Part shown: piece after piece, positions 9,372 through 32,583 of the stretch
How the letters are laid out: each line of letters begins with the position of its first letter
Numbering within the stretch: position 1 is the first letter of the stretch
NCBI RefSeq assembly: GCF_017488845.2
Contig: NZ_CP083371.1
Span: 1,426,001 to 1,490,000, forward strand
Direction: 5' to 3'
Origin: Ensifer canadensis
Lineage (GTDB): Bacteria > Pseudomonadota > Alphaproteobacteria > Rhizobiales > Rhizobiaceae
Length of the DNA stretch: 64,000 nucleotides
Notes under the pieces: generated by a model
Seen by the model: only the letters and a program-made list of their open reading frames with translations
Database searches by the model: none
Told to the model about the DNA's origin: nothing
Translations under genes and position numbers: made by a program

Positions 9372-9388
9372 AAGTACGTAACAGTAAC
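9372..9388 (-). promoter_or_regulatory. GTWAC motif, site 1 (upstream of SH3 protein gene)
   Basis: On the minus strand this reads GTTACTGTTACGTACTT. It is one of six near-identical 17-bp sites in the window, all intergenic. It ends 91 bp before the SH3 gene start, in the same orientation as four other sites relative to their genes. A further GTTAC half-site lies upstream (9396-9400 on the plus strand as GTAAC). It could in principle also affect the divergent XRE gene at 9540, but the orientation rule favours the SH3 gene. The regulator is unknown. Confidence 0.7.
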
Positions 9389-9539
9389 AACGGCCGTAAC
9401 GCCTGCCATCCAATGGGGAATGAGTCGTGCCATACAGCGCAATTATTCGTGTTTTGGCGCGTAGTGATTGCATCGAGTCATTTATTCGAGCAAACTCATA
9501 TGTATGATTTGGTCACGCCTACATGCGGAGGAAACACAC

Positions 9540-9998
9540 GTGAACACAAAAGCACCCAGCCAGATTGATGTCTTTGTCGGTTCCCGCGTCAGGATGCGTC
9601 GGTTGATGGCCGGGTTGAGCCAGGAAAAGCTCGCAGACGGCCTCGGAATTACGTTCCAGCAGGTCCAGAAGTACGAAAAGGGCACGAATCGCATCGGTGC
9701 CAGCCGGCTGCAAGCCATCGCCGACGTTCTCGGCGTTAATCCGAGCTTCTTCTTCCAGGAAGGCGAAGAGGGTGCATCCCCGAGGGCAGGCCTCGGCGAT
9801 GTCCGCGAGCCGAACGAGATCTCGTCCTTCGTCTCGTCAAAGGAGGGCATTGCGCTCAATCGGGCCTTCCTGAAGATTACCGATCCGGTCCTGCGCAAGA
9901 AAATCATCTCGCTGGTGGCTGCCGTCGCACAGACCCCCGAGGCGGAAACAGTCGCAGCCCACGGCAGCACTGCGCCCGCCCCAGACCTGCATGGATAG
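9540..9998 (+). CDS. XRE-family transcriptional regulator (PraR-like)
   Basis: A 152-residue protein from a GTG start with a strong GGAGG at 9527-9531. Residues 8-70 form a Cro/C1 helix-turn-helix: VGSRVRMRRLMAGLSQEKLADGLGITFQQVQKYEKGTNRIGASRLQAIADVLGV, close to the PraR/PhrR type of rhizobial regulators by my recollection of that family. The C-terminal half (FVSSKEGIALNRAFLKITDPVLRKKIISLV) resembles the conserved tail of these proteins. It should bind DNA as a dimer. It is 29 bp upstream of the SARP-like regulator gene and may be co-transcribed with it, so it could control the RiPP-like locus downstream, which is an inference. A TATGAT hexamer lies about 40 bp before the start. Confidence 0.85.
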   Translation: MNTKAPSQIDVFVGSRVRMRRLMAGLSQEKLADGLGITFQQVQKYEKGTNRIGASRLQAIADVLGVNPSFFFQEGEEGASPRAGLGDVREPNEISSFVSSKEGIALNRAFLKITDPVLRKKIISLVAAVAQTPEAETVAAHGSTAPAPDLHG

Positions 9999-10027
9999 CC
10001 GCCACCGGTTGCCGATGAGATAGCCAG

Positions 10028-11884
10028 ATGAAATTTAGATTGCAGACCCTCGGGCGATTACGTCTCGTTGACGAAGACGACTGCGATGTCGCTTTCCCTG
10101 AGAAGGGTCTGCTCATTCTCGCTCAGGCGATTGCCGGCGGCCATCGCGAGCAATCCCGAAACGATGTCGCCAAGCTCTTGTGGAACGAAGTCGTTCCGAG
10201 CCAGGCCTTCGTCAATCTGCGCAAGACAATCTCCCGCATCACGTCGCGTCAGGAAGAACTCGGCCACACGTTCCTCAGTTTTTCGCCATCGACTGTTCGG
10301 ATGCAGCCGGATTCGATTGCGAGCGACCTCGACGACATCGGCCGGAACGCCGAGCAGGACGCGCTATCGCGCTTCCAATGGGCCGGGGAGAAATTCCGTG
10401 ACGATTTTCTCAAGGATTTGAAGTCGCAGGGCCGAGCGCTTCACGACTGGATCGAGCAACGGCGCGCCGATCACGCAGCCCTGCTGCGCGAGTGCCTGAT
10501 CAATGCGGCCGAGATTGCGACCGGCCCGGATCGAAAGCTCGTCAGGTCCGCTGCCGTCAAGCTTCTGGAGAAGAACCCCGACGACGACGAGGTTCGCAAA
10601 ATCCTCAAGACCGTCCTGACGCTGGAGGGCCGGCACTATGACACGCGCCTTCTTTCGGGCGGCGGACTGGTGGCCGCAACCGCCAAGGCGGCACTACCGT
10701 CTAGCTTGCTGGAGACCATGGGCGAAACCCGTCCGCCGCGTGTGGTACTGTTGCCGCCGGGTGCCGGCAATGCCGACGCTGCTGCCACGCTATTTGCTCA
10801 CTCCCTGATCGAGGACGTGACCATCGGCCTTTGCGCGCTCCGCTCGGTTTCGGTGATAGCGCCCTACACGGCAGCGCAGATCAGCCTGCAGGCGGACAAG
10901 GCCAGCACCTACGAACAACACGCCATCAGCTATATCCTCGATACGCGCCTGACGAACGAAGGCAGCCGACAGACACTGTTCACGCAGCTGATCTTCTTTG
11001 CCAACGACGAAGTGATCTGGGCCGATCGCTTTACGCTCGATGACGATGGCTTGATGAGGTCACGCCAGGAGATTGCGCGACAGATCGCGTTTGCCATTGC
11101 CAGTCAGGTCGAGCGCAACGAGACAATGCGCAAGACCTATGAAAGCAACGGCAGTTCCTATCGCAGCTACCTGCTCGGCCAGCGTTATCTCAAGCAACTC
11201 AACCTGCCGGAGGTTCGGCGTGCTCGAAAGAGCTTCCGCGAGGCACTCAGCCAGAATGCCGATCTGGCTCCGGCGATGAGTGGACTTGCGCGAAGCTATT
11301 TCGTCGAGTGGCTTTTGACCGCCCGCGGTGACAGCGAACTTCTGGCGCTTGCCGAACAGCACGCCCGTGATGCGATCGCCATCGACGACACGCTTGCGGC
11401 GGGCTACCGCGAGCTCGGTGTCGTCAAACTCTACAGCCGGCAATTCGACGAAAGCATCGAATTCCATGAGAAGGCCGAAGCGCTCAGCCCGCAGCATGCC
11501 AATGTGATTGCCAGCTACGCCGATACGCTTGTACAGGCCTCGCGCCCGGATGGCGGCCTGCGCAAGATCGAAGCCGCAATCAATCTCAACCCGATGGCTC
11601 CGGACGAATATTTCTGGACCGCCGCCGGCGCCTGCTACTCACTTTCGCAATATGATCAAGCACTTGACTATATCGAGCGGATGCGCGATCCCACCCCGGC
11701 CGATCGTCTCGCCGCGGCGAGCTGGGGTATGCTCGGCAATCGCAAGAAGGCTGGCCAATACGTGCGCAAGACGTTTGAGGTCCACCCGGACTTCAACCTG
11801 GACAAATGGATTGCGATCGTTCCGTTCCGCGAGGAATGGCAGCGAACCCATTACTGCGAAGGCCTGCGCAAGGCCGGATTCTAA
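10028..11884 (+). CDS. SARP-like transcriptional regulator with BTAD and TPR regions
   Basis: A 618-residue cytoplasmic protein. Residues 1-90 look like the OmpR-type winged helix of SARP activators (FRLQTLGRLRLVDEDD, LLWNEVVPSQAFVNLRKTISR). Residues about 95-180 resemble the bacterial transcriptional activation domain (FLKDLKSQGRALHDWIEQRRADHAALLRE). About 230-370 form a TolB/adenylate-cyclase-associated region (VVLLPPGAGNADAAATLFAHSLIEDVT), and about 380-590 contain TPR-like helices. Proteins of this plan usually activate a neighbouring pathway. It lies 29 bp after the XRE gene and just before the precursor-like gene, YcaO and TfuA, so it is the likely local activator (inference). No signal peptide or membrane helix is seen. 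Confidence 0.75.
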   Translation: MKFRLQTLGRLRLVDEDDCDVAFPEKGLLILAQAIAGGHREQSRNDVAKLLWNEVVPSQAFVNLRKTISRITSRQEELGHTFLSFSPSTVRMQPDSIASDLDDIGRNAEQDALSRFQWAGEKFRDDFLKDLKSQGRALHDWIEQRRADHAALLRECLINAAEIATGPDRKLVRSAAVKLLEKNPDDDEVRKILKTVLTLEGRHYDTRLLSGGGLVAATAKAALPSSLLETMGETRPPRVVLLPPGAGNADAAATLFAHSLIEDVTIGLCALRSVSVIAPYTAAQISLQADKASTYEQHAISYILDTRLTNEGSRQTLFTQLIFFANDEVIWADRFTLDDDGLMRSRQEIARQIAFAIASQVERNETMRKTYESNGSSYRSYLLGQRYLKQLNLPEVRRARKSFREALSQNADLAPAMSGLARSYFVEWLLTARGDSELLALAEQHARDAIAIDDTLAAGYRELGVVKLYSRQFDESIEFHEKAEALSPQHANVIASYADTLVQASRPDGGLRKIEAAINLNPMAPDEYFWTAAGACYSLSQYDQALDYIERMRDPTPADRLAAASWGMLGNRKKAGQYVRKTFEVHPDFNLDKWIAIVPFREEWQRTHYCEGLRKAGF

Positions 11885-11919
11885 GTATCATCACCACATG
11901 AGGGACAAGGGGAAAGATG

Positions 11920-12143
11920 ATGACGACCACTCAGGTAGTTGTATTTGGCGTTGAGGGCGACGATGGCCTGTGGCTGGCCGATCTCGGGACGGGAACTGTC
12001 ACACGCATTGTAGATCCGCTCACGGGCGCCCTGGCTTCGGCAATGAGCACAGGAACGCAGGCGCAACGGTGGTCAAGGGTGTCAACTTGGCCGTGCGTGC
12101 AAACTCCGCGGGCTCCGTGTCCGGCGGGTTCATGGACGGCTAA
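11920..12143 (+). pseudogene. RiPP precursor-like small gene with a one-base frameshift
   Basis: A good ribosome-binding site (AAGGGGAAAG) precedes ATGATG at 11917/11920. The frame begins MTTTQVVVFGVEGDDGLWLA and runs through LTGALASAMSTGTQ. After about position 12060 this frame becomes Arg/Trp/Cys-rich nonsense overlapping YcaO. In the frame one base back, the sequence continues GATVVKGVNLAVRANSAG and ends SGGFMDG at a TAA at 12141-12143. Adding one G in the GG at 12060-12061 restores a single 74-residue protein that stops 18 bp before YcaO. Size, position and a Gly/Ala/Val/Ser-rich tail without Cys fit a RiPP precursor whose backbone is modified by YcaO-TfuA, which is an inference. The break may be a base-calling error or a real mutation. 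Confidence 0.6.
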
Positions 12144-12161
12144 GTCTCGGCGCGCTTGCGC

Positions 12162-13412
12162 ATGGCTTCGGACACACATTCAGATCGGGCGAGCGAAAGC
12201 CGCCCGATTTCGGACAATCCTTACATTGCAGATCTTTACTCCGACCGTGTCTGCGCGCCCGAAGAGACCTTCGCGCGCGTCGCTCCTCTGTTGCCCTCAT
12301 TCGGCATCAGCAGGCTTGCCCGTCTGACCGGGCTCGATAGCATCGGCATACCCGTCTGGAACGCCGTTTCGCCGAATGCGAAGTCGATCGTCATCAACCA
12401 GGGTAAAGGCATCACCGATATCGACGCGAAGGTATCGGCGGCGATGGAAGCGCTGGAGCGCGCGGTCGCCTGCAACCCATCAGCACCAACAACGCACGCG
12501 ACGCGGTGTGCATTGCTGGAAAAGGGCGAAAGAGCGCTCACCCTTCCGGGCCTTGTAGCGGCCGGCGAAGCCGATCTTGACGATGACGAAGCAACGGCGT
12601 GGCTGCGCGGCTTCGACCTTCTCGATCAACAGGCGACCTTCGTTCCACTTCAGGCGGTACTGCTCGATCGCACGCTCGAGCGCTGCCGCTACTGGCAGTC
12701 GTCGGACGGGCTTGCCTCCGGCAACACCGAAAGCGAGGCGGTGCTGCACGGCCTGCTGGAGCGGATCGAACGCGATGCCGAGACCCTGTGGCGGCTGCTG
12801 TCCCTGACGGCGCGACTGCGCACCTGCATCGACGCCGATCTGCTCGACGATCCCATCATTAACGACATGACGCGCCGCATTGCTGCAGCGGGCCTGACGT
12901 TCCGCCTGTTCGACATGACCAGTGACATCGGCATCCCCTGCCTGACCGCCGTTATCGCGGATGTGGGCATTCTGGCGGCGAAAGAGCCGCGTTACCATGA
13001 CGTCACGGTCGGGCATGGCGCCCATCCCGATCCGCGACGCGCCGCAATCCGCGCCATCACCGAGGCGGCGCAATCGCGTCTCACCTATATTAGTGGCGCA
13101 CGCGACGATGTTTTTCCGGAAACCTTCACCCGCAGGCTGCCGCGCGAGACGCAGCAACTGTTCGAGGCAGTGCCGGGAGCACGAAACCCGCTCATCTCGG
13201 TCGCTGGCAACCGAGCCAACTCGCTGCTCAAGCACGTGCTCGAAGCGCTGAAGCACGCCGGTATCGGGACTGTCGTTGCGGTTCCGCTACTCGCCGCGCC
13301 GCTACCGTTCTCCGTGATAAAAATCTTCGTACCGGAACTCGAAAATCCCGATGGAGCACGCAAGCGCCGTTTTGGCGCAAGGGCACTGTCGCGCGCGCTG
13401 GAGGTCGCATGA
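12162..13412 (+). CDS. YcaO-domain protein (probable thioamide-forming RiPP enzyme)
   Basis: A 416-residue protein from the ATG at 12162. The YcaO ATP-binding motifs are all visible: SAAMEALERAVA (S-x3-E-x2-E-R), ESEAVLHGLLERIERDA (E-x3-H-x2-L-E-x2-E-R-D) and RRAAIRAITEAAQSRLTYI (R-A-x2-E-A-x-Q-x-R-L). YcaO enzymes activate peptide backbone amides by ATP-dependent phosphorylation. Those paired with TfuA install thioamides, while those with E1/ocin-ThiF partners make azolines. There is no ThiF-like partner here, and the C-terminus lacks the Pro-rich end of azoline-type enzymes, so thioamidation is the better inference. The gene starts 18 bp after the precursor-like gene and overlaps tfuA by 4 bp (ATGA). 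Confidence 0.9.
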   Translation: MASDTHSDRASESRPISDNPYIADLYSDRVCAPEETFARVAPLLPSFGISRLARLTGLDSIGIPVWNAVSPNAKSIVINQGKGITDIDAKVSAAMEALERAVACNPSAPTTHATRCALLEKGERALTLPGLVAAGEADLDDDEATAWLRGFDLLDQQATFVPLQAVLLDRTLERCRYWQSSDGLASGNTESEAVLHGLLERIERDAETLWRLLSLTARLRTCIDADLLDDPIINDMTRRIAAAGLTFRLFDMTSDIGIPCLTAVIADVGILAAKEPRYHDVTVGHGAHPDPRRAAIRAITEAAQSRLTYISGARDDVFPETFTRRLPRETQQLFEAVPGARNPLISVAGNRANSLLKHVLEALKHAGIGTVVAVPLLAAPLPFSVIKIFVPELENPDGARKRRFGARALSRALEVA

Positions 13413-14134
13413 AGATCCTCTTTGCCGGCCCGACCTTGCCGGACGCGCAAGCGCTCATCGACACCGACATCGTGTTGTGCCCCCCAGCCGTACAGGGCGA
13501 CATCGTGCACGCCACGCAGGACGGCGCCACTGTCATCGGACTTGTCGACGGTCACTTCGAACAGGTCGCGCCGGTCTGGCACAAGGAGATCCTGTTTGCG
13601 TTATCCGAAGGTGTGCGCATCTACGGCGCCGCCAGCATGGGCGCGCTTCGCGCCGCCGAATGCGCGACCTTCGGCATGATCGGCGTCGGCAGGATCTATC
13701 AGCAATATGCGACGGGCGAGCTTGAAGACGATGCCGATGTCGCCCTTCTCCATGGCCCGGCGGAACTGGGCTATCTGGCCTTGACCCTGCCGCTGGTCAA
13801 TGTCGTGGCGACCCTTGAAGATTTGCGCGCACGCCAACAGATCGACGCAGCGTCTGCCGCGCAACTGCGGTTGGCGTCCGCCGAGATCTTTTACAAGCAC
13901 CGCAACTGGTCGGCGATCGTGGCGCGTGCCAACCTTCCACCCACCACGGATTTGAAACGGATAGAGGCGCTTCTCACAACCGGCTCGATAGACCAGAAGC
14001 GTGTCGATGCTCTGGATCTTCTCGGCATCATGCGCTCCGCCCCCGCCCAAAAGACGAAGGCCCCGGAAGGCTGGGCATTCAATTCTACAAGCCTTTGGAA
14101 GCGGTTGCTCAATCAACTTGTCGCTTCATCCTAA
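13409..14134 (+). CDS. tfuA: TfuA-like protein, YcaO partner
   Basis: A 241-residue protein. The TfuA core is clear: VWHKEILFALSEGVRIYGAASMGALRAAECATFGMIGVG, with the strongly conserved GAASMGALRAAE. TfuA was first named from the trifolitoxin locus of Rhizobium leguminosarum. In characterised systems it works with YcaO to deliver sulfur for backbone thioamide formation, for example on methyl-coenzyme M reductase in archaea. The C-terminal 100 residues (about 140-241) are helical and end with a lineage-specific tail. The gene overlaps ycaO by 4 bp, so the two proteins should be made in step. The sulfur donor is not encoded nearby. Confidence 0.9.
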   Translation: MKILFAGPTLPDAQALIDTDIVLCPPAVQGDIVHATQDGATVIGLVDGHFEQVAPVWHKEILFALSEGVRIYGAASMGALRAAECATFGMIGVGRIYQQYATGELEDDADVALLHGPAELGYLALTLPLVNVVATLEDLRARQQIDAASAAQLRLASAEIFYKHRNWSAIVARANLPPTTDLKRIEALLTTGSIDQKRVDALDLLGIMRSAPAQKTKAPEGWAFNSTSLWKRLLNQLVASS

Positions 14135-14160
14135 GAATGCAGATTTCCCATGCAACGTGT

Positions 14161-14204
14161 GTCACGCTGATGTCACGCGCATCAATAAAAAGTCACGCTA
14201 TGAT
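14161..14204 (+). promoter_or_regulatory. Possible promoter with GTCACGC heptamer repeats
   Basis: Three exact GTCACGC heptamers start at 14161, 14172 and 14192. The last directly precedes a TATGAT -10-like hexamer at 14199-14204. There is no recognisable -35 hexamer where one would be expected. SARP activators bind heptameric direct repeats at about one-turn spacing next to a -10 box, and a SARP-like gene lies 2.3 kb upstream, so this could be its target. Only one of the two spacings (11 bp) fits, and the heptamer also occurs by chance in this GC-rich DNA. Confidence 0.3.
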
Positions 14205-14254
14205 TTGCCATGTTGAAGCGGATCGGACCGATCCGTAGGGAACTGGGGAAAATC

Positions 14255-14491
14255 ATGCAATCTTCGATCGCCATGTCCTTTGAACCTGAAGACAAGGAGA
14301 AGGAGCTGCTCGCGCTGGCCCGCCTTGTCACCTACGCGCGCGATTCTTCGCGCACACTGAATGTCGAAGGCGTTCAATATTGCCTCGAGCTGGCGCTCGC
14401 CGCGCTGCTTAAGGAAGTCGAGGAATGCGGCGACAAGACCGCACTGCTGACCAACGAACTCATGAGCCGCGCCAGCCTCGGAAACTGCTGA
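14255..14491 (+). CDS. Small conserved-looking protein of unknown function
   Basis: A 78-residue protein from the ATG at 14255, preceded by GGGGAAAATC. An in-frame ATG 45 bases upstream lacks a good ribosome-binding site. The sequence is acidic and helical (FEPEDKEKELLALARLVTYARDSSRTL, then LELALAALLKEVEECG) with two Cys and no signal peptide. I recognise no family. It follows tfuA by 120 bp with its own apparent promoter and is closed by a strong terminator. It may therefore belong to the YcaO locus, as a chaperone or immunity factor or an unrelated small protein. That link is only positional. Confidence 0.6.
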   Translation: MQSSIAMSFEPEDKEKELLALARLVTYARDSSRTLNVEGVQYCLELALAALLKEVEECGDKTALLTNELMSRASLGNC

Positions 14492-14532
14492 GCAGACGAG
14501 GTCGACTTCAATTTCGCTGGTGGCACAGAAAA

Positions 14533-15700: not shown

Positions 15701-15704
15701 GCAT

Positions 15705-18662: not shown

Positions 18663-18686
18663 CCCGGCGAAATCAACAATGGGTTC

Positions 18687-22131: not shown

Positions 22132-22404
22132 CTATGGATTAGATTCACTGCTTGCACTGGAGAGGCAGATGGAAATCACCTCCTCTTCGATCTCTAGACA
22201 GATCAGTTCGTACTCTGCCACCATCGATGCATCCTGCGGATCACACCGACGCTGCCGATCCAGCATGGAGGTCGCCTCGTCATATGCCTCGCAAAGGCTT
22301 GCGAGCGGCATGTTCTTGGCGCTCAGCAGTTGCAACTGGCCGCGCAACGCCGGAAGCTTGAGCATCAGCTTCAAAAGTCCCCGTTGTTTGGCTTCGTTGG
22401 GCAT
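22132..22404 (-). CDS. Small hypothetical protein
   Basis: A 90-residue acidic, helical protein (KLMLKLPALRGQLQLLSAKN, YDEATSMLDRQRRCD, EYELICLEIEEEVISICLSS). It has no signal peptide and no family I recognise. GGATAGAG lies before the ATG. A copy of the 17-bp GTWAC motif at 22631-22647 points towards this gene but is 227 bp away, farther than for the other members. Coding status rests on length, composition and the start context only. It sits between the TPR regulator gene and a 594-bp intergenic region. Confidence 0.5.
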   Translation of the reverse strand: MPNEAKQRGLLKLMLKLPALRGQLQLLSAKNMPLASLCEAYDEATSMLDRQRRCDPQDASMVAEYELICLEIEEEVISICLSSASSESNP

Positions 22405-22630: not shown

Positions 22631-22647
22631 AAGTACGTAACAGTAAC
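22631..22647 (-). promoter_or_regulatory. GTWAC motif, site 2
   Basis: On the minus strand this reads GTTACTGTTACGTACTT, identical to site 1. The nearest minus-strand start is at 22404, 227 bp away, which makes this the only site not within 100 bp of a start. Either the leader is long, a nearer small gene was missed, or the site acts at a distance on the gene at 22999. Confidence 0.6.
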
Positions 22648-22893: not shown

Positions 22894-22910
22894 GTAACTG
22901 TTACGTACTT
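22894..22910 (+). promoter_or_regulatory. GTWAC motif, site 3 (upstream of secreted protein gene)
   Basis: The sequence is GTAACTGTTACGTACTT on the plus strand, ending 88 bp before the start codon at 22999. Orientation and distance match sites 1, 4, 5 and 6. A TTTAGA hexamer about 20 bp downstream could be the -10 box. Confidence 0.7.
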
Positions 22911-22998: not shown

Positions 22999-23682
22999 AT
23001 GCGATCCTTGGACAAGACATCTCATTGCGGACGTTTGGTAGCGTTCCTTTCTGCAGGGATCGCCGCGACCGGTCTGACGCTGCTGAGCACCGAGCTTGCG
23101 GCAAGCGACGACAAATTGAGCGGCCTGCCCTCACTCGTCCTTGGTGGGCTGACGGCGACAGCGCAGACACTCCAGTTCGAGACGCCTTTCAACAATCTCA
23201 TCAATGCCGGCTCGCTCCCGATCACGCTCGAGAAGACGACACTCGACGAGGTCAAGGCCACGTTCGGAGGCAATATCCGCAGCCGGACGGTGGAGGGCAT
23301 GACGGTCGGCTGGCTGTGCTACGAGCTTGCGACCGGAGATCTGCCGCGGCGGATCTGGTTCGTCGCCAACGACAGATCTGACGCAGCCACGCCTGCCCAG
23401 AAACCGGTGACATTCATCTCCACCGAAGAAGTTGCCGACGAAGCCGATAAATGTGACACCCCAACCGTTGCGCTCGCGCCGTTGTTGCTTCCGGTTCCGA
23501 CCTTGAAGGACGGCACGGAAGCCCTGGAGGAACGCTTCGGAGCAGCTCCGAAGCAAGGCATGGTGCGTTACACCCACCAGCAACAGGGCGAACAGAACAC
23601 GACGGTCATGCAAATGCTTGTCTATCGGCTAAAAGGCGGCCACATCGATGGCATCGCCTTCACGCAGATTACATCGAAATAG
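22999..23682 (+). CDS. Secreted protein of unknown function
   Basis: A 227-residue protein. The N-terminus has a basic stretch and a hydrophobic core (LVAFLSAGIAATGLTLLSTELAAS), consistent with a Sec signal peptide cut near residue 36. The mature part has a KTTLDEVKATFGGNIRSRTVEGMTVGWLCYELATGDLPRRIWFV segment and a second similar half ending GGHIDGIAFTQIT, which together suggest two beta-rich units. I recognise no family. GGAGAGATTTCC precedes the ATG. The GTWAC motif lies 88 bp upstream, placing it in the same apparent regulon as the FGE, sulfatase and MoxR operons. It converges on the HAD gene. Confidence 0.75.
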   Translation: MRSLDKTSHCGRLVAFLSAGIAATGLTLLSTELAASDDKLSGLPSLVLGGLTATAQTLQFETPFNNLINAGSLPITLEKTTLDEVKATFGGNIRSRTVEGMTVGWLCYELATGDLPRRIWFVANDRSDAATPAQKPVTFISTEEVADEADKCDTPTVALAPLLLPVPTLKDGTEALEERFGAAPKQGMVRYTHQQQGEQNTTVMQMLVYRLKGGHIDGIAFTQITSK

Positions 23683-23743: not shown

Positions 23744-24805
23744 CTATTTCTCGAAGGCGTAGATCCTGTTCCAGTCGGCTTTCATGTCGATGAGAAGCCA
23801 TTTCCGCTGCTCCGCCTCGTTCATCGCCTTGTCGAGCTTGCCGACATGCGACTGGCGGTCATACGCCCATTCCCGCTCGCCGTCGGTGTGGTGCACGATC
23901 ATCCCGAAGCTCGGCCCTGCGCCAGAGGTAACCCACCGCAGCATCTCGTAGTCGCCGTCGGAATTGCCGGCGACAAAGATCGGGCGGCGACCAATGAACT
24001 TGTTGATGCCGACCGGCTTGCCGGGGCCATCGTCGATGAAATCCACCTTCGGTTCGCGCATGAGCACCGGGGTGTCACCCTGAAGTTCATACTTGGTAGT
24101 TATGGTGCTGCCGACAACCTGTTCCGGCGGTATCCCGTACATCTGCTCGGTCATCGGCCGCATGAATTCGATGCCGCCGCCCGAAACGATATAGGTCTTG
24201 AAGCCGTTTTCCCGCAGATAATCCAATACCTCCCTCATCGGCAGGTAGGTAATCTCGTTATAGGGCCGGTCGAAACGCGGGTGTTTCGCGGTTGCGAACC
24301 AATCCTTGACGATCTTCGTGAATTCGTCCGTCGTCATCCCTGCATGTGTCGCCATCGCGAGCTCGACAAGACCTTTCTCGCCGGCCGCAGCCACGCCGGC
24401 CATATCGCCCTTCAGCAGCGATGCGAACGGCTCCTTGTCCTTCCATTCCGGGTGATCCGGGGCCATAGCCTTGATGCGATCGTTGATGAACATGCCCTGG
24501 AAATACATCGGCTGCTCGGTCCAGAGCGTACCGTCGTTGTCAAACACGGCGATACGGTCCACTTCAGTGACATAATCAGGGCCGCCTTCGGTCGTCACCC
24601 GCGTCACGAAGTCGATGATTGCCGATTTCGCCAAACCGTCGTTCCAGGAAGGAAGGCCAGCCGGAGGTGCATCAGCGGCCACCACAAGCGCCGGCGCGGC
24701 CAGCATCAATGCGAATGATGCCGCAACTCCCATGAAGGTCCGCCACCAGCCCTTCCGATGCGTATCCACATCAATCGACGCGAACTCTCCTGCCCTCAAA
24801 ATCAT
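23744..24805 (-). CDS. Exported HAD-superfamily phosphatase-like protein
   Basis: A 353-residue protein with an N-terminal basic region and hydrophobic helix (FMGVAASFALMLAAPALVVAADAP, about 24-46), so it is exported or anchored. HAD motif I is VFDNDGTLW (nucleophile Asp and acid/base Asp), motif II is TYIVSGGG and motif IV is FVAGNSDGDYEML. The KWLLIDMKADWNRIY end is typical of this periplasmic subgroup. It should hydrolyse a phosphate ester, but the substrate is unknown. It is 44 bp downstream of the FGE gene on the same strand with GGAGG before its ATG, so both should be made from the motif-controlled promoter. Confidence 0.85.
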   Translation of the reverse strand: MILRAGEFASIDVDTHRKGWWRTFMGVAASFALMLAAPALVVAADAPPAGLPSWNDGLAKSAIIDFVTRVTTEGGPDYVTEVDRIAVFDNDGTLWTEQPMYFQGMFINDRIKAMAPDHPEWKDKEPFASLLKGDMAGVAAAGEKGLVELAMATHAGMTTDEFTKIVKDWFATAKHPRFDRPYNEITYLPMREVLDYLRENGFKTYIVSGGGIEFMRPMTEQMYGIPPEQVVGSTITTKYELQGDTPVLMREPKVDFIDDGPGKPVGINKFIGRRPIFVAGNSDGDYEMLRWVTSGAGPSFGMIVHHTDGEREWAYDRQSHVGKLDKAMNEAEQRKWLLIDMKADWNRIYAFEK

Positions 24806-24849: not shown

Positions 24850-25821
24850 CTACGGCCGGCGAATGCAGCGAAAGCCGATATGGGTCGTTGCCGCATTTTC
24901 CTCATGCGCGTGACGGGCCGCGGGGCGGTAGCGACGGCAATAGTTCGGCGCGCAGAGATGCGATCCGCCCTTCACCACCCGCCGCGCGATCAGGATCTCC
25001 GGCTGCCGCGGGTCGTAACTTGCCTCAGCCCCGCCGCCGCGCGGATTGGAGGGGATGCAGCAGCTTTTTTGCGCAGGCCCCGGGTGGTTGCTCGACCAGT
25101 AGTCGCTTGTCCATTCCCAGACATTGCCGATCATGTCGTAAAGGCCATAGCCGTTGGGCGGGAAGCTGGCGACCGGCGACGTCCGCTCGAAGCCGTCAGG
25201 GCGCAGGTTCTCGGTCGGGAAGGTGCCGTGCCAGGTGTTGGCCATGAAACGGCCCTCAGGGACAAGTTCGGCGCCCCACGCATATTCCGCGTCATTCGGG
25301 CCGCCCTTGGCGGCATACTCCCACTCGGCTTCCGTCGGCAGATCCTTGCCGGCCCATTTCGCATAGGCCATGGCATCGACATAGGAAATCTGCACGACGG
25401 GATGGTCGAGCTTGCCGCGAATGTTGCTCTGCCGGCCATATGGCCTTTTCCAGTCGGCACCGAACTTGAAGTTCCACCATTGCGAGGGGTCACGGCTGGT
25501 GACGCGCTTCGGCGGATCGAAAATCACCGACCCCGGCCGCATCATTTCCGGCAGTGCACCCGGGTATTCCTTCGGGTCAGGCGCCTTCTCGGCAACGGTG
25601 ACGTAGCCGGTCGCCTCGACGAATGCACCAAACTGCCGGTTGGTGACAGGCGTGACGTCGATCCAGAATCCGTCGACCTTCACCGGGTGAGCCGGTGCCT
25701 CTTCGGGGTAATGATTGTCGGACCCCATCGTGAAGGTGCCGCCTTCGATCCAGATCGGCTCGCGCGCGCTGATCGCCATTGGCGTTTCGTCGAGGGTCGG
25801 CCTGGTGGATAGTGTTTGCAT
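24850..25821 (-). CDS. Formylglycine-generating enzyme (SUMF1 family)
   Basis: A 323-residue protein without a signal peptide. The FGE-sulfatase fold is evident: WIEGGTFTMGSDNHYPEEAPAHPVKVDGFWID at the front, PVVQISYVDAMAYAKWAGKDLPTEAEWEYAAKGG in the middle, GNVWEWTSDYW, and GGSHLCAPNYCRRYRPAAR near the end. Cys290 and Cys295 match the copper-binding active-site pair of true FGEs, which many family members lack. So it should oxidise the Cys in a sulfatase motif to formylglycine in the cytoplasm before export. An arylsulfatase with the needed motif is at 32681. The two share the GTWAC motif upstream although 7 kb apart. Confidence 0.9.
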   Translation of the reverse strand: MQTLSTRPTLDETPMAISAREPIWIEGGTFTMGSDNHYPEEAPAHPVKVDGFWIDVTPVTNRQFGAFVEATGYVTVAEKAPDPKEYPGALPEMMRPGSVIFDPPKRVTSRDPSQWWNFKFGADWKRPYGRQSNIRGKLDHPVVQISYVDAMAYAKWAGKDLPTEAEWEYAAKGGPNDAEYAWGAELVPEGRFMANTWHGTFPTENLRPDGFERTSPVASFPPNGYGLYDMIGNVWEWTSDYWSSNHPGPAQKSCCIPSNPRGGGAEASYDPRQPEILIARRVVKGGSHLCAPNYCRRYRPAARHAHEENAATTHIGFRCIRRP

Positions 25822-25896: not shown

Positions 25897-25913
25897 AAGT
25901 ACGTAACTGTTAC
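25897..25913 (-). promoter_or_regulatory. GTWAC motif, site 4 (upstream of FGE-HAD operon)
   Basis: On the minus strand this reads GTAACAGTTACGTACTT, ending 75 bp before the FGE start at 25821. A TCTAGA hexamer lies about 19 bp further downstream. It is 74 bp from site 5, which faces the other way, so two divergent operons share this intergenic region. Confidence 0.7.
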
Positions 25914-25987: not shown

Positions 25988-26004
25988 GTTACTGTTACGT
26001 TCTT
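25988..26004 (+). promoter_or_regulatory. GTWAC motif, site 5 (upstream of MoxR-Bat operon)
   Basis: The sequence is GTTACTGTTACGTTCTT, ending 99 bp before the MoxR start at 26104. It differs from the others by one base (GTTC for GTAC). Orientation to the gene is the same as at sites 1, 3, 4 and 6. Confidence 0.65.
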
Positions 26005-26103: not shown

Positions 26104-27075
26104 ATGGGTACACGTGACGACATCGAACAGCTCGGCAAGCGGATCGGCGAAGCCATTGTCGGCCAACAGGGCATGATCGAACGCCTGCTGCTCGGCCTCC
26201 TGAGCAACGGCCACCTGCTGGTCGAAGGCCTGCCCGGGCTTGCCAAGACGCGGGCCATCAAGAGCATGGCGAAGAACCTCGACGCCGAGCTGTCACGCAT
26301 CCAGTTCACACCGGACCTTTTACCCTCCGACATCACCGGCTCGGAGGTCTATTTCACCGAAGGCGGCAAGGGCGAGTTCCGCTTTCAGCAGGGTCCGATC
26401 TTCGCCAATCTCATCCTTGCCGACGAAGTCAACCGCGCACCGGCGAAAGTGCAGTCCGCCCTGCTCGAGGCGATGGAGGAGCGGCAAGTGACTGTCGGTG
26501 GCGACAGTCACGAGCTTCCCGAGCTCTTCATGGTGATGGCAACGCAAAACCCGATCGAGCAGGAAGGCACCTACCCCTTGCCTGAGGCGCAGCTCGATCG
26601 TTTCCTCATGCACATCCAGGTCGATTATCCCGACGCCAAGTCGGAGGCCGAGATCATGCGGCTGGTGCGGTCGGAAGAAACGGCTGCCGCCTCGAAAGTG
26701 AAGTCCAACGAAAAGCTGGCTCAGGATGCGGTGTTTACGGCACGAAAGGAAATCTCGGCAGTGACCGTCTCGAGCGCGATCGAGGACTATATCGTCGCCC
26801 TGGTTATGGCGACACGCTACCCGGACAAGCTCGACAAGGACGTGGCCAAATGGATCCAGGTGGGCATCAGTCCGCGCGGCGTCATCGGTCTCGACAAGGT
26901 CTCGCGCGCCCATGCCTGGCTGAAGGGAAGAGACTTCGTGACGCCGGATGACGTGCAAGCGACAGTACACGACGTCTTCCGCCACCGGCTCGTCCTCTCC
27001 TATGAAGCCCATGCCGGCGGCACGAGGGCCAACCAGGTCATAGACCGGATCGTGCAGCAGGTCGCTGTCGCCTGA
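26104..27075 (+). CDS. moxR: MoxR-family AAA+ ATPase
   Basis: A 323-residue protein with Walker A GLPGLAKT (residues 42-49), Walker B LILADEVNRA, sensor 1 ATQNP and the MoxR-typical IEQEGTYPLPEAQLDRFLM. MoxR ATPases act as chaperones for membrane-linked complexes that contain VWA-domain proteins. The gene heads a tight run with a DUF58 protein, a DUF4381 protein, two VWA proteins and BatD, all within 0-16 bp or overlapping. GGGAGG precedes the start, and GTWAC site 5 lies 99 bp upstream. The likely role is assembly or control of the Bat membrane complex in envelope stress tolerance, by analogy with other bacteria. Confidence 0.92.
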   Translation: MGTRDDIEQLGKRIGEAIVGQQGMIERLLLGLLSNGHLLVEGLPGLAKTRAIKSMAKNLDAELSRIQFTPDLLPSDITGSEVYFTEGGKGEFRFQQGPIFANLILADEVNRAPAKVQSALLEAMEERQVTVGGDSHELPELFMVMATQNPIEQEGTYPLPEAQLDRFLMHIQVDYPDAKSEAEIMRLVRSEETAAASKVKSNEKLAQDAVFTARKEISAVTVSSAIEDYIVALVMATRYPDKLDKDVAKWIQVGISPRGVIGLDKVSRAHAWLKGRDFVTPDDVQATVHDVFRHRLVLSYEAHAGGTRANQVIDRIVQQVAVA

Positions 27076-27091
27076 GAGATGGAGAGGCCCG

Positions 27092-28087
27092 ATGGCAATA
27101 TCCCTGTCCGCATTCGCCCGGTCGAAGGGCATTGCCCATCCTCCGAAGGTGGAGGCATCGGGCGCCTACACCTCCGTCGACGAACTGGTCGGCCTTGAGG
27201 CGACAGCCCGTGACCTGACCTTCCTGCGTAAGGCGCCGGTCCGGCGATTGCTGGCAGGACGCCATGAATCGCGCATGCGTGGTCGTGGGCTTTCCTTCGA
27301 GGAGCTTCGCGAATACCTGCCTGGCGACGATATCCGCACCATCGATTGGAGGGTGACGGCGCGGACCGGCAAACCGGTCGTGCGGGTTTATGACGAGGAG
27401 AAGGATCGGCCGGCGCTTGTGATCGTCGACCAGCGCATCAACATGTTCTTCGGCAGCCGCCGCGCCATGAAGTCGGTTGCCGCGGCGGAAGTGGCCGCCC
27501 TCTGCGCCTGGCGCATCACGGCGCTTGGCGATCGGGTCGGCGGCTTTGTATTCGGAGATGAGACCGTCGACGAGATCAGGCCCTACCGCAGCCGCGAGGC
27601 CGTCATTCGGTTTGCCGACGTCATCGTTCGCCACAACATCGCACTCTCCGCAACCTCCAAGGTTGCAAGAGGCGACGAGCAACTGGACATCGTGCTTTCG
27701 GCCGTTGCCAACATCGCCAAACATGACCATCTGATCATCGTCATCAGCGATTTCGACGGCCACGGCCTGGAAACGCGCGACATGCTGCTCAAGCTCTCTG
27801 CCCATAATGACGTGATCGCCATCCTGATCTACGACCCCTTCATGCTGGAATTGCCGCGCAAGGGCGACATCGTCGTCAGCGGCGGCGCGCAACAGGCAGA
27901 GCTTCAATTCGGTCATGCAAACGTCCGCGAGGCGATCGACAGCTTCGCGCGCAAGCGCGGCCGCGCGCTTCAGGCATGGCAGGAGGACCTGGGGCTGCCG
28001 ATGCTGCCGATTTCCTCGGCGGAAGAGATTGCACCGCAATTGCGCACCATGCTCGGCCAGTTGGCCTGGCGTCAGCGGAGACGGTAG
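27092..28087 (+). CDS. DUF58 domain protein of the MoxR-Bat operon
   Basis: A 331-residue protein. The DUF58 signature RMRGRGLSFEELREYLPGDDIRTIDWRVTARTGKPVVRVYDEEKDRP is clear at about residues 64-112, followed by a degenerate VWA-like fold (ALVIVDQRINMFFGSRRAMKSVAA, LIIVISDFDGHGLETRD). There is no signal peptide and no evident transmembrane helix. Its place between MoxR and the VWA proteins is the standard order of these operons. DUF58 proteins are thought to bridge the ATPase and the membrane complex. The start is 16 bp after moxR. Confidence 0.9.
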   Translation: MAISLSAFARSKGIAHPPKVEASGAYTSVDELVGLEATARDLTFLRKAPVRRLLAGRHESRMRGRGLSFEELREYLPGDDIRTIDWRVTARTGKPVVRVYDEEKDRPALVIVDQRINMFFGSRRAMKSVAAAEVAALCAWRITALGDRVGGFVFGDETVDEIRPYRSREAVIRFADVIVRHNIALSATSKVARGDEQLDIVLSAVANIAKHDHLIIVISDFDGHGLETRDMLLKLSAHNDVIAILIYDPFMLELPRKGDIVVSGGAQQAELQFGHANVREAIDSFARKRGRALQAWQEDLGLPMLPISSAEEIAPQLRTMLGQLAWRQRRR

Positions 28088-28089
28088 CG

Positions 28090-28617
28090 ATGGAAGGGAC
28101 CACGCCAGCGGTCGATCCCGGCCTCGCTGCCGCGCTCCGCGGCCTTGCCGATATCGCCTTGCCACCGCCCGTCTCGATGCTGCCGCAGACCTGGGCCTGG
28201 GCGGTGCTCGCCGGACTTGTTCTACTGGCAATCGCCTTCGCGCTCCGGCGCTGGTATCGCCACCGCGAGCTCAATCGTTACCGCCGCGAGGCGCTTGGCG
28301 AGCTTCGCCAGATAGAACAGCGCATTGGTGCTGCTCAAACACGTGGCGATGCGCTCGCTGCCCTGCCCGCCCTTCTCAAGCGCACCGCGCTTGCGGTCTG
28401 GCCACGCGAGACGATCGCCAATCTGAGCGGCAAGGGCTGGACCGGCTTCCTCGACGCCCATTCCGGTGGCCCTGTCTTTCCCACAACCGCGGCGCATTTC
28501 TTCGAAGAGGCTGAGTACCGCGGGCCGGTGGTTTTGGCATCTGTTCCCGAGGCCGAAGCGAAAGCCCATGTTGCGGCGGCACGATATTGGATCGAGGCGC
28601 ACCATGTACGTCCTTGA
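28090..28617 (+). CDS. DUF4381 family single-pass membrane protein
   Basis: A 175-residue protein from the ATG at 28090, two bases after the previous stop. It has a short Pro-rich N-terminus (LADIALPPPVSMLPQTWAW), one transmembrane helix (AVLAGLVLLAIAFALRRWY, about 37-55) and a cytoplasmic helical domain with YRREALGELRQIEQRIGA and LLKRTALAVWPRETIANLSG. This is the DUF4381 layout found in MoxR-VWA operons. It overlaps the next gene by 14 bp. Its biochemical role is unknown. An adaptor in the Bat complex is the usual guess. Confidence 0.85.
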   Translation: MEGTTPAVDPGLAAALRGLADIALPPPVSMLPQTWAWAVLAGLVLLAIAFALRRWYRHRELNRYRREALGELRQIEQRIGAAQTRGDALAALPALLKRTALAVWPRETIANLSGKGWTGFLDAHSGGPVFPTTAAHFFEEAEYRGPVVLASVPEAEAKAHVAAARYWIEAHHVRP

Positions 28618-29608
28618 TCATTCCTGGCTGCTCGTCCTGCTGCCACTTCCGGCCGTCATCTGGTGGCTGCTTCCGGCCTATCGCGAGCAATCGGCGGCGG
28701 TCCGGATCCCATTTTTCAAGGACATCACCGCAGCGGCGGGCATCGGCGCGACCGAAGGATCGGTCGTGCCCAAGTCGAACTTTGGGCAGAAGCTGATTGC
28801 GCCGATCTGCTGGGGCCTGATCGTACTGGCACTGGCGCGGCCGCAATATATCGAGCCGCCGATCGAAAAGACCGAACCGCAACGCGATCTCATGCTGGCA
28901 ATCGACCTGTCGCAATCGATGGATACGCGCGACTTTCACGATCCGGCCGGCAATCTGCAGGCCCGGGTCGATGCCGTGCACACGGTCGTCGCCGATTTTA
29001 TCGACAAGCGCCCCGAAGACCGTCTCGGCCTCATCGCCTTTGGCGATGCCCCCTACCCGCTCGTGCCGTTCACGCTCGACCACAAGACGGTCAAGGCGAT
29101 GCTGGCCGACAGCCTGCCGGGAATGGCGGGTCCACGCACCGCGATCGGCGATGCGATCGGCCTTGCGATCAAGATGTTCGACCAAAGCACGGCACCGGAC
29201 AAGGTGCTGATCCTACTGACCGATGGCAACGACACCGCGAGCAAGATGCCGCCCGACAAGGCCGCCGGCATTGCCGCCGAAAAACACATCGTCATCCACA
29301 CGGTCGGCATCGGCGATCCCAATGCGCAAGGGGAACAGAAGCTCGACACGTCAGTCTTGCAACAGATCGCGACGGCGACGCATGGACGATATTTCTTCGG
29401 CCAGGACCAGGCCTCGCTGCAGAATATCTACGAGCTTCTCGATCAGTTGACGCCGGAAAACCAAAAGACCCTGTCCTGGCGGCCGCGCATCGAAGTGTTC
29501 CACTATCCGCTGGGCGCGGCGTTGATCCTCGTCCTCGCCTATCACGCGATCATGTGGCTGCTGTCGGCCCGCGCAGACCGGCGTCGCGAAAGGGAGGCGG
29601 GAGCATGA
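28604..29608 (+). CDS. batA: BatA-like VWA-domain membrane protein
   Basis: A 334-residue protein from the ATG at 28604. N-terminal hydrophobic helices flank a short loop (HSWLLVLLPLPAVIWWLLPAY and KLIAPICWGLIVLALARP). A VWA domain follows (about 90-280) with an intact metal-ion site DLSQSMD (D-x-S-x-S) and ILLTDGNDTA. A C-terminal transmembrane helix (YPLGAALILVLAYHAIMWLL) completes it, so the VWA domain should face the periplasm. The stop overlaps the next start (ATGA). It is the canonical BatA partner in this operon class. Confidence 0.9.
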   Translation: MYVLDHSWLLVLLPLPAVIWWLLPAYREQSAAVRIPFFKDITAAAGIGATEGSVVPKSNFGQKLIAPICWGLIVLALARPQYIEPPIEKTEPQRDLMLAIDLSQSMDTRDFHDPAGNLQARVDAVHTVVADFIDKRPEDRLGLIAFGDAPYPLVPFTLDHKTVKAMLADSLPGMAGPRTAIGDAIGLAIKMFDQSTAPDKVLILLTDGNDTASKMPPDKAAGIAAEKHIVIHTVGIGDPNAQGEQKLDTSVLQQIATATHGRYFFGQDQASLQNIYELLDQLTPENQKTLSWRPRIEVFHYPLGAALILVLAYHAIMWLLSARADRRREREAGA

Positions 29609-31176
29609 TCACCGACTTCCATTTCCTCCGGCCGCTCTGGCTGCTGGCGCTGCTAGCCGCCCCCCTGCTTGTGATGTTGATCGGCCGGCGCACCGACGTG
29701 CGCTCGCAATGGCAGAACATGATCGCGCCGCATCTTCTCGACCACCTGCTGATCGAGAAAGGCGGAAGGCGATGGCTGCAACCGGTTCACCTGACGGCCG
29801 TGCTGATCGTGATTGCCGCGATCGCGGCGGCCGGACCGACATGGCAGCGTGAAAAGCCGCCCTTCGTCGAGGATACGGCGCCGCTGGCGATCGCGATCGA
29901 CCTGACCGAAACGATGAATGCCACTGATGTCTCGCCGACGCGGCTCGAGCGAGCCAAGTTGAAGGTGCAGGATATCCTTTCTCTGCGAAAGGGCGCGCGT
30001 ACTGCCCTGTTTGCCTATGCCGGCACAGCACACATGGTGCTGCCGCTCACCGACGATGCAAACCTCATAAAGACCTATCTGGCCGCCCTCTCGCCGAGCA
30101 TCATGCCGGTAACCGGCCGAGACACCGGCAGGGCGCTGCAGGTCGCCGAGGATGCGCTTTCCAGCGAGACCGTACCGGGCACGATCCTGTTCATGACCGA
30201 TGGCGTCGAGCGCACGGCATTCGACGCCTTTGCGCGATATCAGGGCCGCAACGACCTGATGGTGCTCGGCATCGGCACCGCCGATGGCGGCCCGGTGAAG
30301 ACGGCCGATGGCCAGTTCCTCACCGACGCGACGGGCGCGCGGGTCCGTGCCAAACTCGACGTCGATGCGCTGAAGGCATTGCAAGCGGCGTCGAAAGCGC
30401 AGGTCGCGACGGTCACGCCCGACGACAGCGACGTGCGCTGGATCATCAGGCGGATCCAGAGCAGCTTCGCGCAAAAGACCGCCGAAGGCCTGACGCGCTG
30501 GTACGATGCCGGCTGGTGGCTGACCATCCCGATCGCACTCCTTGCCGCGTTGTGGTTCCGCCGCGGCTGGACAGTCCGTTGGGCGGTCTATCTGGTAGCC
30601 GTCGGCACGGTGCTGCCAGGGGTAAAGGCCGAGGCAGCCGATCGCAGCTTTGCCGATCTCTGGTTCACCCCGGACCAGCAGGGCCAGCGGGCCATCGATC
30701 GCGGCGATTTCCAGGGAGCGGCCGGCGATTTCCAGGACCCGGCCTGGCAGGGCGTCGCCCTCTTTCGTATCGGACGCTATCAGGATGCCATCGATGCCTT
30801 TGCGCAGGGCGATACGGCCGAAAGCTACTATAACCAAGGCAACGCCCTGATGCATCTCGACAAGGCCGAGGAGGCGATTGCCGCCTACCAGCAGGCGCTC
30901 AAACGCCGCCCGGACTGGCCCGAAGCCAGGCAGAACCTGGCAGTGGCCGAGAAACGCAAGGCAGACAATGACAAGCAGGATCAGGATGCCCAGCAGGAGG
31001 CGGCCGGGCTCGATCCGGATCAGATCCAGTTCGACGACAAGGGCAAGAAGGGCAAGGAGGGCACGGTGGCGGGAGCGCCGCAGACCGCTGAGATGTGGAT
31101 GCGCAATATCCAGGTTTCCCCGGCCGATCTGCTGGCACGGAAATTCGCGATCGAAGCGAAGGATGCAGTGCCGTGA
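29605..31176 (+). CDS. batB: BatB/BatC-type fusion: VWA domain plus TPR repeats
   Basis: A 523-residue protein from the ATG at 29605, which overlaps the batA stop. Transmembrane helices at about 8-25 and 58-75 precede a VWA domain (about 90-290) whose metal site reads DLTETMN, so Thr replaces the usual Ser residues. LFMTDGVERTAF follows. A helix at about 305-330 returns to the membrane, and the C-terminus has TPR units (YYNQGNALMHLDKAEEAIAAYQQALKRRPDWPEARQNLAVAEKRK, about 405-450) and a Lys/Asp-rich linker. In many bacteria the VWA (BatB) and TPR (BatC) parts are separate genes. Here they are one protein. The open frame extends upstream to 28663, but that part is a shadow of batA. Confidence 0.9.
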   Translation: MITDFHFLRPLWLLALLAAPLLVMLIGRRTDVRSQWQNMIAPHLLDHLLIEKGGRRWLQPVHLTAVLIVIAAIAAAGPTWQREKPPFVEDTAPLAIAIDLTETMNATDVSPTRLERAKLKVQDILSLRKGARTALFAYAGTAHMVLPLTDDANLIKTYLAALSPSIMPVTGRDTGRALQVAEDALSSETVPGTILFMTDGVERTAFDAFARYQGRNDLMVLGIGTADGGPVKTADGQFLTDATGARVRAKLDVDALKALQAASKAQVATVTPDDSDVRWIIRRIQSSFAQKTAEGLTRWYDAGWWLTIPIALLAALWFRRGWTVRWAVYLVAVGTVLPGVKAEAADRSFADLWFTPDQQGQRAIDRGDFQGAAGDFQDPAWQGVALFRIGRYQDAIDAFAQGDTAESYYNQGNALMHLDKAEEAIAAYQQALKRRPDWPEARQNLAVAEKRKADNDKQDQDAQQEAAGLDPDQIQFDDKGKKGKEGTVAGAPQTAEMWMRNIQVSPADLLARKFAIEAKDAVP

Positions 31177-32537
31177 ACCGACGTATCCAGCCCATTCTTC
31201 TTGCGCTCGCCGCCTTCTGGCTGTCGCTGGCGAACGTCGCGCTGGCAGCCGATCCATTCGCCCGCGCCACGCTCGCCACCAAGGGAACGATCTACGCCGG
31301 ACAGCAGGTTGAGGTCGACGTCGACGTTTTCGCGCCGAACTACTTTCTGTCGCCGCCACAGTTTCCGCTGTTCGACCTTCCCGGCACCATCGTGACGATG
31401 CCAGACGATCGCGGCCTGAACCTCAACGAGACAATCGATGGCGTCGATTTCTCCGGTATCCGCAAGACCTACGTCATCACACCGCAGGCGGCGGGAGACT
31501 ACACTTTACCGCCTGTCGATATCCCGTTCGGTTATGCGGCCGTTCCCGGCAAAACCACGCAAGGGCGAGTGAAATTGCCGACGCTGCGGCTGACAGTGAC
31601 GGAGGTGCCCGGCGGCGCTGACGGCAAGGCCGGCGTCACCGCCGAGAAAGTGACGATCACGCAAGTCTTTGATCGTGATCCGGCAAGCCTGCGTGCCGGC
31701 GACGCTCTGGTTCGCACCGTTACCTTCGAAGCGGATGGACTGGCGGCGATGATGATCCCGGAGCCGTCCTTCGAAGCACCCGCGGGTGTCAAAGTCTATG
31801 TCCACGACCCCTTGCTCTCCGAGCATAGGTCGGATCGCGGCGTGTTCCTGGGCGGCGTCCGCAAGGACACGGCCACCTATGTCTTCGCGAAAGCCGGTAC
31901 CTACACGATCCCCGCAATCAGCCTACAGTGGTTCAATCCGTCGCTCGGCAAGACGCAAACGGCCGAAGCGCCGTTGGCCAAGGTTTCGGTTGCGGCAGCA
32001 CCTGCAGATGCGACCGCCCTTGCCCCGCCGCACCCGCCGCCTGAGAATGCGCCATTCGACTGGCAGTGGTGGGTCGGCGCAGGCCTGGTGGTGGTGGCAC
32101 TGGCGCTCCTGATCCACTTTGCCGCCGTTATGGCCGGCCGTATCCAGGCATGGTTTGACGAAATACGGACGCGCAAGGCGCAGTCCGAGGCAACGGCTTT
32201 CCATCGCGTCGACGAGGGATGTCGCAGCGGCGACGCAGAGCGGTTCGAGGCGGCGATCGACGCATGGTCGCGCAAGACGGGGAATGTTCCAATGACCCAG
32301 TGGCTCGATCGCTTCGCCGACCCGGAGACAAGGGCCGCCTTCGCCAACCACCAGCAGTCGCTTTATCGAGACCAGCAGGACGCGGCGCAGAAGCCGAATC
32401 TCCTGCCGCTTAGAGCCGGCCTTGGCAAAGCCAGAAGCCGCTGGCTCGAGCAAATCTTCGACGACGAGCCGGTGCCGGCCAATGAACTCCCCGATCTCAA
32501 CCCGGCGTTCGACGCCGATTTACCAACCAGTCGCTAG
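31173..32537 (+). CDS. batD: BatD-like exported membrane protein
   Basis: A 454-residue protein from a GTG start overlapping the batB stop (GTGA). It has a signal peptide (IQPILLALAAFWLSLANVALA, cut near AADP), a large periplasmic beta-rich part with two immunoglobulin-like units (about 30-290), one transmembrane helix at about 295-318 (WWVGAGLVVVALALLIHFAAV) and a cytoplasmic helical tail rich in charged residues. That is the BatD plan, and its place as last gene of the operon supports this. It should anchor the complex across the membrane. The next gene begins 143 bp downstream behind its own motif site. Confidence 0.85.
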   Translation: MNRRIQPILLALAAFWLSLANVALAADPFARATLATKGTIYAGQQVEVDVDVFAPNYFLSPPQFPLFDLPGTIVTMPDDRGLNLNETIDGVDFSGIRKTYVITPQAAGDYTLPPVDIPFGYAAVPGKTTQGRVKLPTLRLTVTEVPGGADGKAGVTAEKVTITQVFDRDPASLRAGDALVRTVTFEADGLAAMMIPEPSFEAPAGVKVYVHDPLLSEHRSDRGVFLGGVRKDTATYVFAKAGTYTIPAISLQWFNPSLGKTQTAEAPLAKVSVAAAPADATALAPPHPPPENAPFDWQWWVGAGLVVVALALLIHFAAVMAGRIQAWFDEIRTRKAQSEATAFHRVDEGCRSGDAERFEAAIDAWSRKTGNVPMTQWLDRFADPETRAAFANHQQSLYRDQQDAAQKPNLLPLRAGLGKARSRWLEQIFDDEPVPANELPDLNPAFDADLPTSR

Positions 32538-32566
32538 CGCTGCCGGACCGGGCGTTACGATCCTTC

Positions 32567-32583
32567 GTAACTGTTACGTACTT
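32567..32583 (+). promoter_or_regulatory. GTWAC motif, site 6 (upstream of arylsulfatase gene)
   Basis: The sequence is GTAACTGTTACGTACTT, identical to site 3, ending 97 bp before the sulfatase start. Extra half-sites flank it: GTTAC at 32554-32558 and GTAAC at 32588-32592. It begins 29 bp after the batD stop, so the sulfatase can be induced independently of the Bat operon. Confidence 0.7.

Follow-up and report, generated by a model that had tools for sequence, protein, structure and literature searches.

A 17-bp element upstream of secreted and envelope genes of Ensifer canadensis is very probably the operator of a CadC/ToxR-like membrane-anchored regulator

In a 64,000-nucleotide stretch of Ensifer canadensis DNA (contig NZ_CP083371.1, positions 1,426,001 to 1,490,000; hereafter the window), six copies of a 17-bp element lie among genes for secreted and envelope proteins. 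We consider it very probable that the element serves as operator for a CadC/ToxR-like, membrane-anchored one-component activator encoded at 20139-21908 (-), between the sites. This 589-aa candidate regulator (P0001) appears to switch on secreted and envelope genes in Ensifer and in some related bacteria. The motif is confirmed, and its conservation shows that the regulon is real. The motif, its distribution, its co-occurrence with the regulator, the promoter geometry and the predicted folds were established by computation.

The six sites of the original prediction were recovered with the same positions and strands, five of them exact and the one at 25988 with one mismatch. Only 0.04 matches are expected by chance in the window (100 shuffles), and the whole 64 kb holds no other match to the motif at up to three mismatches. 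A relaxed consensus, KTWACNGTWACGTACTT, was derived from the sites of the source genome. On the minus strand, the sites are 9372-9388 (GTTACTGTTACGTACTT; 90 bp upstream of the gene of an SH3/glycine-rich secreted protein, start 9281), 22631-22647 (GTTACTGTTACGTACTT) and 25897-25913 (GTAACAGTTACGTACTT; 75 bp upstream of the FGE-HAD unit, with TAGACT at the -10 position). On the plus strand, they are 22894-22910 (GTAACTGTTACGTACTT; 88 bp upstream of a secreted protein gene), 25988-26004 (GTTACTGTTACGTTCTT; 99 bp upstream of the MoxR-Bat unit) and 32567-32583 (GTAACTGTTACGTACTT; 97 bp upstream of a sulfatase gene). The predicted spacing of 75-99 bp to a start codon in the same orientation holds for these five. 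The sixth site, 22631-22647, is presumably autoregulatory. It faces a 90-aa open reading frame (ORF) at a distance of 226 bp and then, behind that ORF, the regulator gene at 722 bp. All sites had also been described as intergenic, which at 9372 hinges on the choice of start, since the longest ORF there (6696-9473) spans the site; the likelier start, at 9281, provides a signal peptide. Two intergenic regions of the window hold divergent site pairs about 90 to 265 bp apart (22631/22894 and 25897/25988). Similar pairs are seen elsewhere, among them G014:C9:132446/132622 and G012:C1:318579/318763 in two other genomes.

A scan of the whole genome (8.09 Mb) with the originally predicted consensus gave 10 sites at up to one mismatch, against none for the backward pattern. 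At up to three mismatches the count is at the level of noise (17 versus 19 for the backward control); despite this, of the 11 such sites beyond the window, 7 lie before a DUF1254/DUF1214, sulfatase, SH3_3 or DUF3302 gene. All 16 Ensifer genomes searched carry 5-15 sites at up to one mismatch of that consensus and 4-12 exact matches to KTWACNGTWACGTACTT. Outside the genus, the same scan at up to one mismatch found one site in one of 25 genomes, and a draw of 249 genomes from the order Rhizobiales contained two with the motif. Among 80 loci with sulfatase orthologues, eight have two to eight sites each at up to two mismatches of KTWACNGTWACGTACTT (L053-L057, L062, L075 and L126). Six of these belong to Ensifer or Sinorhizobium sp. 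A49, where the relatives of the source sulfatase are 85-96% identical to it, one to Phyllobacterium pellucidum (L062) and one to Rhizobium mayense (L126), whose sites are mainly TTTACAGTAACGTACTT. The other 72 loci (Pseudomonas, Cupriavidus, Mesorhizobium and others) have no site at this threshold, and the backward control gave 12 matches in 12 of the 80. The targets themselves were rejected as drivers of the motif: the site-free loci contain the sulfatase in 72 of 72 cases, MoxR in 67, DUF58 in 68, HAD in 64 and FGE in 6. Papers containing the letters GTTACGTACTT or GTAACGTACTT were unrelated, judging by their titles, and a literature search joining Ensifer adhaerens, motif, regulon and sulfatase gave no match.

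The P. pellucidum locus encodes a relative of the 589-aa protein (40% over 577 aa) and, ahead of it, one of the 90-aa ORF; none of the 72 site-free sulfatase loci has a relative of either. We therefore tested P0001 on whole genomes. In the order draw of 249 genomes, sites and P0001 (E<=1e-60) were found in the same two. In a family draw of 297 genomes, 17 had P0001 at E<=1e-56, a cut-off set after a gap in the E-values was seen, and 16 had at least two sites, all of them within the 17. The co-occurrence of sites and regulator has a Fisher p of 1.5e-25. Within the seven genera where only some of the sampled species have the pair, the probability of exact agreement is 1.6e-5. Eight family genomes with weaker matches to P0001 (5.7e-41 to 8.3e-48) have no site. 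The exception is G469, which has the regulator at 2e-58 and no site. Its locus (L228, G469:C44:158000-171000) holds the regulator orthologue, the 90-aa ORF, a sulfatase and a HAD gene together, with no site even at two mismatches; loss or change of the operator is a candidate reading. Five family genomes lacking the regulator (G348, G380, G447, G484 and G492) have one site each, which is the chance level, the backward pattern giving 8 matches in the same 297 genomes. Two of them from one genus, G380 (L172) and G447 (L173), share the same site, TTAACAGTTACGTACTT, letter for letter. It may be there by chance, be a relic or serve a different reader.

A tree of 34 rows agrees with the cut-off. The 18 best matches from genomes with sites group in a single clade of 20, together with G469 and a second copy from G362. 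Outside it are 14 rows, 10 of them from genomes that lack two sites and 4 being additional copies from site-bearing genomes; L166, L232 and L233 were left out of the tree, having no clean domain match or being copies of included rows. Thirteen genomes selected by their sulfatase behaved in the same way. At least two sites were found only in the two with the regulator, R. mayense (9.4e-89, 9 sites) and P. pellucidum (3.0e-116, 15 sites), and the R. mayense orthologue had been predicted from its sites before it was searched for. The other 11, two of which (G554 and G555) are apparently G340 and G316 of the family draw, have no P0001 at E<=1e-56 and no sites, except for one genome with one. Proximity follows the same pattern. 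All 16 Ensifer genomes have both regulator and sites, with a site 689-726 bp upstream of the regulator in each. A site at up to two mismatches lies within the 1.5-kb flanks of the regulator in 13 of the 17 best family matches, and the flanks of 12 other homologues (the 8 weaker matches and 4 second copies) have none. The second copy in G362 (L163, G362:C5) has its own 90-aa ORF, methionine at residue 86 and no nearby site, and may read another operator. According to the original prediction, no gene of an envelope-sensing regulator of OmpR type lay in the window. This has to be revised, as the predicted CadC/ToxR-like regulator at 20139-21908 (-) tracks the motif across genomes; OmpR-type response regulators were not looked for in every window gene.

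Structure prediction places the 589-aa protein among the CadC/ToxR-like membrane one-component regulators. Its model contains a winged helix of OmpR/PhoB type at about residues 17-121, as in that class, a probable membrane helix at 160-183, which is also hydrophobic on inspection of the sequence, and an alpha/beta and tetratricopeptide repeat (TPR) part. In Foldseek the periplasmic domain of CadC (3lya) ranked third (E 3.9e-5, 310 columns), with a root-mean-square deviation of 18 and other TPR proteins ranking alike. We count the C-terminal part as a CadC-type periplasmic sensor domain, and its location is probably periplasmic. The protein matches no Pfam family and has only a weak TPR match in NCBIfam, and neither database gave a receiver domain with a phosphoacceptor aspartate. 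The winged helix is divergent and has no Pfam model; 33 sequences of the domain gave only stray Pfam matches (E>=0.036). No OmpR-type or other convincing relative of known structure turned up in sequence searches with the protein and with its winged helix. Near relatives are from Ensifer, and databases name the family 'tetratricopeptide repeat protein' or 'hypothetical protein'. Our searches on CadC, TPR and membrane regulators, in a literature collection with few subscription papers, found no paper on it. In one assembly (L154, G500:C42), the N-terminal part of the regulator gene is not aligned as one frame with the rest.

The small, conserved ORF upstream of the regulator (22132-22404, -) offers another candidate. 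It could be the DNA-binding or decisive factor, or act with the 589-aa protein as a ToxR-ToxS-like pair. Of the 17 best family loci, 14 (among them that of G469) have this ORF directly 5' of the regulator, as do L230 and L231. Of the 12 other homologues, the second G362 copy is the sole one with the ORF beside it. In G295 the sites accompany the 90-aa ORF, and the regulator is about 13 kb away. Against such a role, the ORF has no NCBIfam match and no evident DNA-binding domain, G469 has it and yet no sites, and the winged helix, with a recognition helix that varies with the site, belongs to the 589-aa protein. We regard either role of the 90-aa ORF, decisive factor or partner, as unlikely. Given the gap of 223 bp, it is not certain that the ORF and the regulator share an operon.

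The variation in the recognition helix involves residue 86 of the regulator, near the start of the helix. In four genomes this residue is isoleucine or valine, and 18 of the 20 sites there begin with T. It is alanine in ten genomes, where 12 of the 71 listed sites begin with T. These counts use 13 of the 20 sites of G468 and, from the genus, the source genome only. The covariation fits direct recognition of the operator by the 589-aa protein without proving it. The four proteins with isoleucine or valine form one clade with the second G362 copy, so the link may reflect a single event.

The promoter geometry was examined with 121 distinct exact sites, 87 of which remained after requiring flanks less than 50% alike. 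Eight loci were left out of the counts (the regulator-free single-site loci of G348, G380, G447, G484 and G492, plus G018 and G558). Counting from the first base of the site, 56 of the 87 have T 43 nt further on, against a background of 22% (p = 3e-17, uncorrected for the roughly 113 positions). T is next most frequent at the adjacent position 42 (38 of 87), and A is the most frequent base at positions 38 (40%) and 39 (47%). If T43 is taken as -7, the site spans about -50 to -34, with its final TT where the -35 begins. This is a class II activator position, and the proposed activator-type geometry is supported. CTTGAC, the usual -35 of these bacteria, is found at the end of none of the 121 sites. 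Of the six window sites, 22631 and 25897 alone have their T exactly at 43. At 22894 a TAGAAT is shifted downstream by one base, and 9372, 25988 and 32567 have no good -10 match at the expected position. An ORF starts 20-150 bp downstream of 77 of the 87 sites. For ORFs of at least 200 aa, a downstream start was found at 63 of 87 sites versus 153 of 435 random positions in the same loci.

The sites might instead be bound by an OmpR-type two-component response regulator encoded elsewhere, such as ChvI, which the original prediction named, FeuP or another. Envelope-type targets would suit such a regulator, and the site has repeat or dyad character and overlaps the -35 like those of PhoB-type activators. 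However, the published motifs do not match. The ChvI consensus of S. meliloti is quoted in PMC9731502 as N-GCC-N8-GCC, and KTWACNGTWACGTACTT cannot hold GCC according to the site matrix. The same source gives TTGC-N3-GCAA for Caulobacter ChvI, which is likewise unmatched, and the candidate FeuP motif TTCA-N7-TTCA (PMC3616915) is absent from the consensus of our motif. The accessible text of PMC3687685 and PMC10659215 contains no consensus letters. The distribution differs as well. ExoS/ChvI orthologues are described as ancestral to Rhizobiales in the text available of PMC4550343, whereas our motif is in 2 of the 249 order genomes; ChvI itself was not searched for. We rejected ChvI and FeuP on motif and distribution, and we judge any such response regulator to be quite improbable.

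The element could also be the -35 part of a promoter of an alternative, extracytoplasmic function (ECF) sigma factor. Its spacing to the -10-like base is fixed, and its end, GTACTT, recalls the ECF -35 GGAACTT. ECF promoters have a sharp -10, whereas the best -10 bases here (A38, A39 and T43) reach only 40-64%, and the conserved 17-bp dyad block exceeds the length of a -35 element. The ECF promoter was rejected on these grounds as very unlikely. We also rejected, as the least probable candidate, the 618-aa protein encoded at 10028-11884 (+) near the 9372 site, the only regulator besides P0001 tested for co-occurrence. Its gene sits within the cluster and its first ~90 residues resemble a SARP/BTAD regulator, but its distribution contradicts the sites. 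Of 18 site-bearing genomes tested, 4 (G295, G445, G500 and G506) lack a match at E<=1e-20, and of 5 site-free ones, 2 (G211 and G539) have the protein. This protein has a TPR C-terminus and several homologues in many of the genomes tested.

For the CadC/ToxR-like regulator, we infer direct binding to the element, activation rather than repression, an envelope signal and autoregulation. The CadC-like/TPR periplasmic part would sense an envelope or periplasmic cue, and the cytoplasmic N-terminal winged helix would bind KTWACNGTWACGTACTT at about -50 to -34. The final TT of the element would stand in a poor -35 box, and the bound regulator may recruit RNA polymerase to the -10 element 21 nt downstream. 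The regulated set would include sulfatases and their FGE maturase, the HAD phosphatase, the SH3 protein, the MoxR-Bat unit, DUF1254/DUF1214 proteins and outer-membrane proteins, with the regulator's own locus probably among the targets. The predicted order of winged helix, single membrane helix and CadC-like periplasmic part, and the lack of a detected receiver domain, resemble Escherichia coli CadC. However, the winged helix is too divergent for Pfam. The operator here is a sharp 17-bp element at several scattered promoters per genome, whereas CadC has AT-rich Cad1 and Cad2 sites at cadBA in the text available of PMC5430869, and the targets differ. Compared with Vibrio cholerae ToxR, targets and operator differ, and the 90-aa companion is upstream and has no membrane segment evident by eye. 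Unlike response regulators of the OmpR/PhoB family (PrrA, PhoB, RstA and PhoP), the 589-aa protein has no receiver domain and is predicted to be membrane-bound, and its operator is not a 10-11 bp direct repeat. The ExoR-ExoS-ChvI regulon of Sinorhizobium shares envelope and secreted targets in related bacteria but differs in binding motif and phylogenetic distribution, as far as PMC9731502 and PMC4550343 report them.

We lean towards the further view that the N-terminal domain defines a new and widespread class of transcription factors, membrane-anchored and with a TPR sensor, that has so far gone undescribed. Paralogues within the same genomes would then read other operators, residues 86-88 of the recognition helix setting the specificity. 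If true, the Ensifer/Phyllobacterium/Rhizobium clade would be the first of the class with a defined operator and a multi-promoter envelope regulon. An orphan motif is now tied to a named candidate regulator, and a family known as 'TPR' or 'hypothetical' gains a likely DNA-binding role and an operator. DUF1254/DUF1214 proteins, sulfatases with FGE and MoxR-Bat units would be joined in one envelope programme. This would provide a handle on DUF1254, a name rarely found in the literature searched.

In the window, the target genes encode an 861-aa secreted SH3_3 protein (6696-9281, -), a 227-aa protein with a signal-peptide-like N-terminus and no assigned function (22999-23682, +), a HAD-type hydrolase with an N-terminal hydrophobic segment (23744-24805, -), an FGE-sulfatase (sulfatase-modifying factor) family protein (24850-25821, -) and a 548-aa sulfatase (32681-34327, +). 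The MoxR-Bat unit (26104-32537, +) comprises a MoxR ATPase, DUF58, DUF4381, two vWA proteins (one with TPR) and a BatD-like protein. Of the 11 sites outside the window in the source genome (up to three mismatches), four precede DUF1254/DUF1214 proteins, and one each precedes a sulfatase, an SH3_3 protein, a DUF3302 protein and a 56-aa lipoprotein-like ORF; at locus L023, outside the window, no clear target was seen. The same families recur in other genera, together with FGE, HAD, DUF202 and Phenol_MetA_deg outer-membrane proteins, a family-2 glycosyltransferase, a short-chain dehydrogenase and a DUF900 hydrolase (20 target proteins scanned, source genome included). The proposed regulon of secreted and envelope genes, and its presence in relatives, are supported by these targets and by the conservation of the motif.

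The window also carries a YcaO cyclodehydratase gene followed by a TfuA-like gene with a 4-base overlap (12156-14134, +). Such YcaO/TfuA pairs are known from peptide and protein modification. A gene of the L-2-amino-thiazoline-4-carboxylic acid hydrolase family lies at 37097-37732 (+), near the regulon cluster.

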